In this document: piece by piece, positions 45,030 to 55,031 of the stretch
How positions within the stretch are numbered: position 1 is the stretch's first letter
How the letters are laid out: every line of letters starts with the position of its first letter
Assembly (NCBI RefSeq): GCF_037198285.1
Contig: NZ_CP147243.1
Span: forward strand, 1,488,001-1,552,000
Length of the DNA: 64,000 nucleotides
Direction of reading: 5' to 3'
DNA from: Haladaptatus sp. DJG-WS-42
GTDB taxonomy: Archaea; Halobacteriota; Halobacteria; Halobacteriales; Halococcaceae
Notes under the pieces: model-generated
Database searches by the model: none
The model's input: the letters and a program-made list of their open reading frames with translations, nothing else
What the model was told of the DNA's origin: nothing
Program-made: the position numbers and the translations under genes

Positions 45030-45359
45030 ACCGAGTCCCTCACTTCGGCCCTTCCCCAACCCGGCTCCCCGTCGGGGAGGCCGGTACCCCCTATCGGTTG
45101 CATCGCCCCGGCCGCGCCCCCACGCGGCTGTGAACCAAACACAGCGCACCCTACTGCGCTCCATCGAAGGCGTCGCCAGCGCCTTCGTTGTCTGCCATGC
45201 CACTGCGCTGCTGGCGCGCTCGCCACCGCTCACCACGGTGGCGTTCAGTACCGACCAAATCCCCTTGGCCGGTTCTCGGCGGCTGCCACCGCCGCCACGG
45301 CCGTTCCATCCGTGGCCCGCGCCAGCAGGTACACACCTACTTCCTGAGCGATAGCGGAA
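45030..45359. other. Non-coding, hairpin-rich region
   Basis: 330 bp between the DUF7511 and threonine synthase genes. It has hairpins CTCCCC-GTC-GGGGAG (45065-45079, flanked by CCGG arms), CCGCG-N6-CGCGG (45112-45127), CGAAGGCG-N7-CGCCTTCG (45165-45187) and CGCCACCG-N7-CGGTGGCG (45221-45243). A reading frame at 45130-45354 is Pro/Arg-rich and not credible. Possibly a structured RNA or a decayed repeat. Confidence 0.5.
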
Positions 45360-54618: not shown

Positions 54619-54647
54619 ACGCATCACGGGGATAGTCACGGACGCGA

Positions 54648-54729
54648 GCCAGGATGGCCGAACGGTAAGGCGCACGCCTGGAAAGCGTGTTCCCTTTCGG
54701 GATTCTGGGTTCAAATCCCAGTCCTGGCG
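54648..54729 (+). tRNA. tRNA-Ser (anticodon GGA)
   Basis: 82 nt. Acceptor stem GCCAGGA/TCCTGGC with discriminator G, anticodon stem-loop CACGC-CTGGAAA-GCGTG (anticodon GGA, reading UCC/UCU), a long variable arm (TTCCCTTTCGGGAT) as in type II tRNAs, and T-arm CTGGG-TTCAAAT-CCCAG. No intron and no encoded CCA. Its 3' end is repeated downstream. Confidence 0.95.
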
Positions 54730-54734
54730 TTTTC
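54716..54734 (+). repeat. 19-bp direct repeat, left copy (tRNA-Ser 3' end)
   Basis: TCCCAGTCCTGGCGTTTTC, spanning the last 14 nt of the tRNA plus 5 nt. The identical right copy is at 54919-54937. The pair looks like the attL/attR of an element or a partial tRNA duplication. Confidence 0.75.
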
Positions 54735-54918
54735 ATCGATTCAGCTTTGAGAGCGACGCGACTCACGCGTCGCTCTCTCGTGGCGATGAAAACGGGGACT
54801 GGGATTTGAGCGGGAGTTGCGCGAACATCGCTAACGCGAGTTCGCGCAGGGTGAGTGCCTTCAAACTACGCTGAGCCACAGGCTCAGCGAGGTTCGCGAA
54901 ACCAGTGGTTTCGCTCAC
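54735..54918. other. Hairpin-rich island between tRNA-Ser direct repeats
   Basis: 184 bp with no gene. It holds a 12-bp perfect stem (54749-54777, loop ACTCA), an inverted copy of the tRNA 3' end and flank (54784-54809), a 9-bp stem (54818-54848), CGCTGAGCC-ACA-GGCTCAGCG (54869-54889) and GCGAAACC-AGT-GGTTTCGC (54896-54914). It resembles a non-autonomous element or remnant. Confidence 0.65.
54784..54809 (-). repeat. Inverted copy of tRNA-Ser 3' end
   Basis: CGATGAAAACG (54784-54794) and GGACTGGGATTTGA (54796-54809) are reverse complements of 54728-54738 and 54711-54724 respectively, so the tRNA T-arm, 3' strand and flank are mirrored around the 12-bp hairpin. Confidence 0.7.
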
Positions 54919-54937
54919 TCCCAGTCCTGGCGTTTTC
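54919..54937 (+). repeat. 19-bp direct repeat, right copy
   Basis: Identical to 54716-54734. It is followed by unrelated sequence leading to the next gene, so the duplicated unit ends here. Confidence 0.75.
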
Positions 54938-55031
54938 TCAACGCAACACCCCCAGCAGCGCGTCTACTTTCTTCTCGCCCACACCTGTTACCACTCCAAC
55001 ACTTAAACCACTCGTCTGAGAAATATCACAC

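Follow-up and report, generated by a model that had tools for sequence, protein, structure and literature searches.

The window, that is, the whole stretch of 64,000 nucleotides of Haladaptatus sp. DJG-WS-42 DNA that was analysed, carries on its forward strand a tRNA-Ser(GGA) gene followed by hairpins and partial copies of the tRNA (Table 1). The 3′ end of the tRNA recurs as an exact 19-nt direct repeat (TCCCAGTCCTGGCGTTTTC) with a spacing of 203, as a preliminary description had claimed. The mirror-image copy of this end, which that description had placed at 54784-54809, is likewise present, together with a 12-bp hairpin. The mirror copy consists of two perfect inverted arms, of 11 and 14 nt, and the sole break between them is TGG against one base. 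Three additional perfect stems, also described before, can be read from the sequence of the insert. The parts in Table 1 are named after the order found in such units generally: H1, a hairpin right after the T-tract of the tRNA; I, in which the T-loop and part of the T-stem are repeated in inverted orientation; the core; and D, a copy running from the T-loop to the tRNA 3′ end, with I, core, and D folded as one hairpin designated H2. G000 is the genome that contains the window, and G001 and G002 are genomes of the same genus.

Table 1. Parts of the unit behind tRNA-Ser(GGA), in window positions
Feature	Position	Strand	Basis or detail
tRNA-Ser(GGA), host gene of the unit	54648..54729	+	ARAGORN; Rfam RF00005, 61.8 bits
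D1, the 19-mer at its first occurrence (the terminal 14 nt of the tRNA and 5 nt of flank)	54716..54734	+	
H1 hairpin, directly 3′ of the tRNA	54728..54794	+	outer arms 54728-54738/54784-54794, perfect over 11 nt
H1 inner 12-bp stem	54749-54760/54766-54777	+	
203-bp insertion relative to the G002 empty site, with D2 at its end	54735..54937	+	G002 alignment; absent from G001 too
I, inverted copy of the tRNA T-loop, T-stem and acceptor strand (GGACTGGGATTTGA)	54796..54809	+	against 54711-54724, perfect over 14 nt
Variant core with 9-bp hairpin 54818-54826/54840-54848	54810..54859	+	sequence; comparison with other cores
TTCAAA, rest of the T-loop in the D copy; the inserted hairpin module lies between it and TCCC	54860..54865	+	
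Right-end hairpin module: stem 54869-54877/54881-54889, then GCGAAACCAGTGGTTTCGC (54896-54914; stem 54896-54904/54906-54914) and TCAC against TCCC	54866..54918	+	
D2, second copy of the 19-mer	54919..54937	+	
Older H1 remnant (TCAACGCAACACCC..AGCAGCGCG)	54938..54968	+	directly 3′ of the tRNA in G001 and G002

The claim that the insert carries no gene was borne out: no integrase gene lies in the 203 bp, and the listed open reading frames, which are not integrases, overlap only the edge of the insert. Across the window unit, Rfam matched the tRNA alone. The 211-nt insert folds with a z of -9.3 and the tRNA plus insert with a z of -11.4, and 0 of 200 shuffled sequences folded as well. A read-through RNA of 54648-54937 is predicted to misfold, with the 3′ half of the tRNA caught by I and H1 and with D2 placed in the acceptor stem; the free fold is 17 kcal/mol better than the fold with the native tRNA (-169.2 vs -152.3). 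Elsewhere in the window, on the reverse strand at 45119-45210, ARAGORN calls a tRNA-Ala(GGC) that is backed neither by the Rfam tRNA model nor by the genome-wide tRNA search and is probably a false positive.

The G002 sequence aligns to window positions 54640-54734 and 54919-54960, both segments sharing 19 bp, and forms a clean empty site in which the 19-mer stands exactly once and the insert is missing, the arrangement that the preliminary description had proposed to look for in relatives. Upstream identity between G000 and G002 is 94%, and G001, the outgroup, is farther. The insert is also absent from G001, where an older H1 stands directly after the tRNA. Because G002 and the more distant G001 both lack the unit, the simplest reading of the alignments is probably that the unit was gained in the G000 lineage.

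Two weak matches to the right end of the insert, in G000 and G002, both lie behind tRNA-Ser(TGA), between copies of its 3′ end. When 392 genomes of the order were searched with a 169-nt query from the Ser(TGA) tail, 36 proved to contain a conserved core of ~47 nt, almost always behind tRNAs and for many amino acids. All 12 core-motif matches in G000 are at tRNA tails, and the reversed control gave 0. The 2.78-Mb genome holds no second full copy of the internal 184 bp, so that the suggestion that this segment might be found at other tRNA ends holds for its modules, which recur individually, and not for the whole.

A census was made of all 44 tRNAs of G000 with their flanks, and likewise for G002 and G001, scoring as a tail copy any repeat of the tRNA's own last 14 nt that lies within 1 kb and has no more than 1 mismatch. 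Downstream copies were found at 20/43, 10/42, and 16/44 tRNAs in the three genomes, 46 of 129 in total, and by the same rule there were no upstream copies (0/129). This absence, together with fold z values of -9 to -11, eliminates a chance repeat. A slightly looser rule gave tail copies at 24/44, 12/42, and 21/44 tRNAs. For around one third of tRNAs, a D copy is lacking in all three genomes; those never followed by a tail copy include Ala(TGC), Ile, Leu(CAG), Leu(GAG), Ser(GCT), Thr(TGT), and Thr(GGT). Hairpins with arms of at least 7 occur in the first 75 nt after 23/43, 22/41, and 24/42 tRNAs; at a distance of 1.2 kb the counts are 5, 5, and 9. In two non-haloarchaeal genomes of the phylum, tail copies were present at only 1 of 30 tRNAs.

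Several core types exist, of which type A has the form N-A-RG-GA-RY-loop-RY-GA-CY-GNG, and a T-rich tract follows each D. A separate right-end module, NCGCAAA..TTTGCTCA(C/G)T abutting the TCCC of the T-stem, has 24 occurrences in the three genomes, spread over 11 tRNA types. The window unit has H1, I, D, and this module as its right end, and for that reason is considered composite; the split of TTCAAA from TCCC seen in it recurs at tRNAs Asp, Gly, Leu, and Ser(TGA). R1, a covariance model of the I-core-D hairpin that represents one core type (type A), although units may carry others, does not match the window, where the unit has a variant core. The model matches 89 of the 91 listed haloarchaeal genomes, from 43 genera, with at most 13 candidates scored per genome, so that copy numbers per genome are lower bounds; in the other ~302 genomes of the phylum there were 0 matches. 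A same-strand tRNA lies upstream of 114 of the 117 model matches checked, at a median distance of 65 nt; of the other three, two merely echo a true match on the reverse strand.

It is highly probable, then, that a family of gene-less hairpin units at tRNA tails extends across the haloarchaea and that the island belongs to it as a composite member. The preliminary description had likened the repeats to the attL/attR of an element that carries no gene: a non-autonomous mobile element, a remnant, or a tRNA-derived hairpin RNA. The empty site supports the likeness, but an isolated element or remnant is excluded by the hundreds of units behind tRNA genes that form a family. A dispersed repeat was also rejected, since three seemingly tRNA-distant matches proved to lie behind an apparent tRNA-Trp end or behind two integrated elements. 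Rfam 15 returned no family over the units, only tRNA and weak tRNA-like chance matches. In the collections of viral contigs, phages, and plasmids searched no units were found, and four viral pattern matches were judged to be chance, having no tRNA and no matching context. Open-access PubMed Central papers yielded no description of haloarchaeal tRNA-tail hairpin units. An element nearly universal in its clade thus appears to be undescribed in Rfam and in the open papers searched, although absence there is no proof of novelty.

The co-change of the tRNA, D, and I was assessed with 69 cores found by core sequence alone, without use of I or D. In none of 5000 shuffles did I fit the reassigned tRNAs as well as its own (0/5000), and the same holds for D (0/5000). 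Examples are tRNA-Lys TTCAAC with inverted GTTGAA and tRNA-Met TTCAAATCTAC with inverted GTAGATTTGAA. At tRNA-Val(CAC), the T-stem of the tRNA, D, and I differ together between G001 and G000 within a unit whose other parts, H1 among them, are nearly identical. In one genome the D behind tRNA-His has kept up with the tRNA, and I lags. The D copies of the three genomes comprise 60 self and 0 foreign copies, the tRNA-Met gene itself and its tail being excluded, and the Met-type matches behind tRNA-Asn are the adjoining tRNA-Met gene and its own tail. In genome G120, one unit of the tRNA-Lys array (L248, around 1036-1200) ends in TCCCGTCGCGCCCG, which resembles a tRNA-Arg end. This end may hint at transfer between tRNA loci, of which it is the clearest sign.

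An alignment of 30 type-A hairpins has 92% of its pair cells paired and a covariation score of 0.307, compared with at most 0.073 in slid controls. Core pairs outside the tRNA copies also covary: 18-53 (GC17/AU8/GU4) and 23-48 (CG16/UA13). An alignment of 107 distinct hairpins contains 1387 Watson-Crick, 50 G-T, and 26 A-C cells, counts that lean towards structure as the alignment was fitted to the model. Tandem G-A mismatches are conserved inside the covarying stem; a kink-turn reading of this motif was discarded by eye, as the adjoining bases covary as pairs. Among 81 distinct inner loops, the first two positions are Watson-Crick in 76 and 79. Judged from these alignments, the units are conserved as a folded strand. 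G-T outnumbers A-C only about 2:1, a ratio compatible with either RNA or single-stranded DNA.

Between close species, entire units are present or absent at orthologous tRNAs, and the junctions fall at D. Four exact 111-bp tandem copies stand behind the tRNA-Lys of G120, and behind its tRNA-Leu the same H1 and I occur with two different cores in tandem. At tRNA-Glu(TTC), H1 and I are common to three species and the cores are of three different kinds. Cores group neither by genome nor by tRNA type, which excludes whole-unit vertical inheritance and simple within-genome spread. We consider it likely that units turn over at D, and the comparisons show a haloarchaea-wide family with conserved structure and fast turnover. 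At the tRNA-Arg TCT tails (L063, L196, L337), corresponding hairpin loops are inverted between species, GGA vs TCC, possibly as a trace of template switching.

Integron attC sites act as a folded single strand with paired outer and inner boxes, an unpaired asymmetric spacer, and a variable terminal structure, and occur in tandem arrays. The units have the same folded paired boxes, unpaired spacer, variable terminal structure, and arrays, but the likeness is an analogy of shape only: the outer box is a copy taken from the adjacent tRNA, D reads GTTCAAA or GTTCGAA and not as the GTTRRRY core box, and a unit is without the gene of a cassette. Bacterial REP/REPIN elements resemble the units in being irregular hairpins of many copies and clade-wide spread, but they are not tRNA-bound and their arms do not match the target. 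Casposons target tRNA 3′ ends with target duplication; the units, unlike them, have no Cas1 gene and no terminal inverted repeats of their own, their arms being tRNA copies. The scattered insertion of SMRs, PATEs, or MITEs is not seen in the units, given the placement of all G000 core matches. The SMRs and PATEs of Haloquadratum are short gene-less palindromic repeats, scattered, without target duplication, and not described as tRNA-specific, in contrast to units whose D is a tRNA copy; the Haloquadratum study on them, which also describes repeat-mediated deletion between partial tRNA duplications, is the nearest published account (PMC3119063).

As the best explanation on the whole, we tentatively favor a gene-less family whose units recombine at D and are gained as folded cassettes. 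Recombination between D copies would account for the loss and multiplication of units and would keep D identical to the tRNA, and new units would be gained as cassettes inserted at the 3′ end of the tRNA by a putative recombinase acting in trans. The recombination site of the cassette would be double-stranded only in the folded single strand, where I pairs with D; if the site needs folding, I must match D and D must match the tRNA. Such a folded single-strand mechanism, with a logic like that of integron attC, is by analogy conceivable and is put forward with some reserve. A self-carried D should sometimes land elsewhere, yet foreign D copies are nearly absent, and D is therefore perhaps made from the target. 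That the units are integron-like arrays behind many tRNAs, with a site built from the tRNA so that tRNA, D, and I evolve together, is possible but rather doubtful.

It is somewhat unlikely that the units are instead structured RNAs, either 3′ trailers of the tRNA transcripts or small RNAs, with selection on the RNA keeping I and D paired and with H1 and H2 serving termination, 3′ processing, or as a decoy of the tRNA 3′ domain. The covariation with G-U tolerated on the tRNA strand and the invariant tandem G-A mismatches are consistent with this, as are the constant tRNA orientation, the proximity to tRNAs, and the T-rich tract after each D. However, a D is lacking behind about a third of tRNAs and unit presence varies freely among orthologous tRNAs, so the units are not needed for tRNA maturation; moreover, the tandem arrays and the insertion with D duplication are left unexplained, and the window read-through is predicted to misfold its tRNA.

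An unlikely alternative is a mutational by-product without function or mobility, in which the replication fork switches template at the tRNA and thereby generates the mirror copies and maintains perfect stems, and arrays arise by unequal recombination between direct copies. The origin of both I and D in the local tRNA, the exact tandem copies in G120, and the loop inversions (GGA/TCC, GAA/TTC) in corresponding hairpins point in this direction. Against it stand a conserved non-tRNA core and an invariant tandem G-A in a covarying stem across 43 genera; palindrome correction would erase mismatches, and the persistence of the G-A pairs argues against pure palindrome correction. The near universality in haloarchaea, beside the single tail copy at 30 tRNAs of the two other genomes of the phylum, also counts against it.

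Two full-size integrated elements are present in G000: a 3.7-kb element in tRNA-Lys(CTT) (L164, G000:C1:111978-115663) with a 352-aa ORF resembling a tyrosine integrase, and a 9.7-kb element in tRNA-Phe (L165, G000:C1:1780350-1790020) with 337-aa integrase-like and 525-aa helicase/primase-like ORFs, named by eye. Older tail units stand behind both. The combination of an inverted copy and a covarying hairpin is, to our knowledge, not a feature of integrases, and the earlier judgement that mirror-image tRNA ends lie beyond simple integrase action is right. The tRNA-targeting archaeal elements of the SNJ2, pNOB8, and SSV type (PMC8371274) share with the units the 3′-end direct repeat, the intact tRNA, and insertion directly behind it, but the units are gene-less, 100-300 bp long, carry the inverted tRNA copy and covarying hairpin, and occur behind many tRNAs at once. 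A conventional tRNA-targeting element, whether only its attachment site is left or a tyrosine integrase like that of SNJ2 moves it in trans, with the window unit as its remnant, is very unlikely: direct repeats that begin in the T-loop or 14 nt before the tRNA 3′ end and run to that end are those of archaeal integrases (PMC8371274), the window unit has both direct repeat and empty site, and the genome has integrase-bearing elements, but the ends of these two elements are unlike the units, which excludes the units as right ends of such elements, units are absent from the viral and plasmid collections searched, and ordinary integrase elements are hard to reconcile with foreign D copies being nearly absent.

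The established site, polarity, structure, co-change, and turnover of the units are compatible with action as RNA and as single-stranded DNA. The co-change of tRNA, D, and I makes the mechanism testable. The family would represent either a new RNA class with a link to tRNA biogenesis or mobile or recombining DNA of a new kind, with the tRNA as its template, and the unit arrays may shape the landing sites of viruses and integrative elements in haloarchaea.
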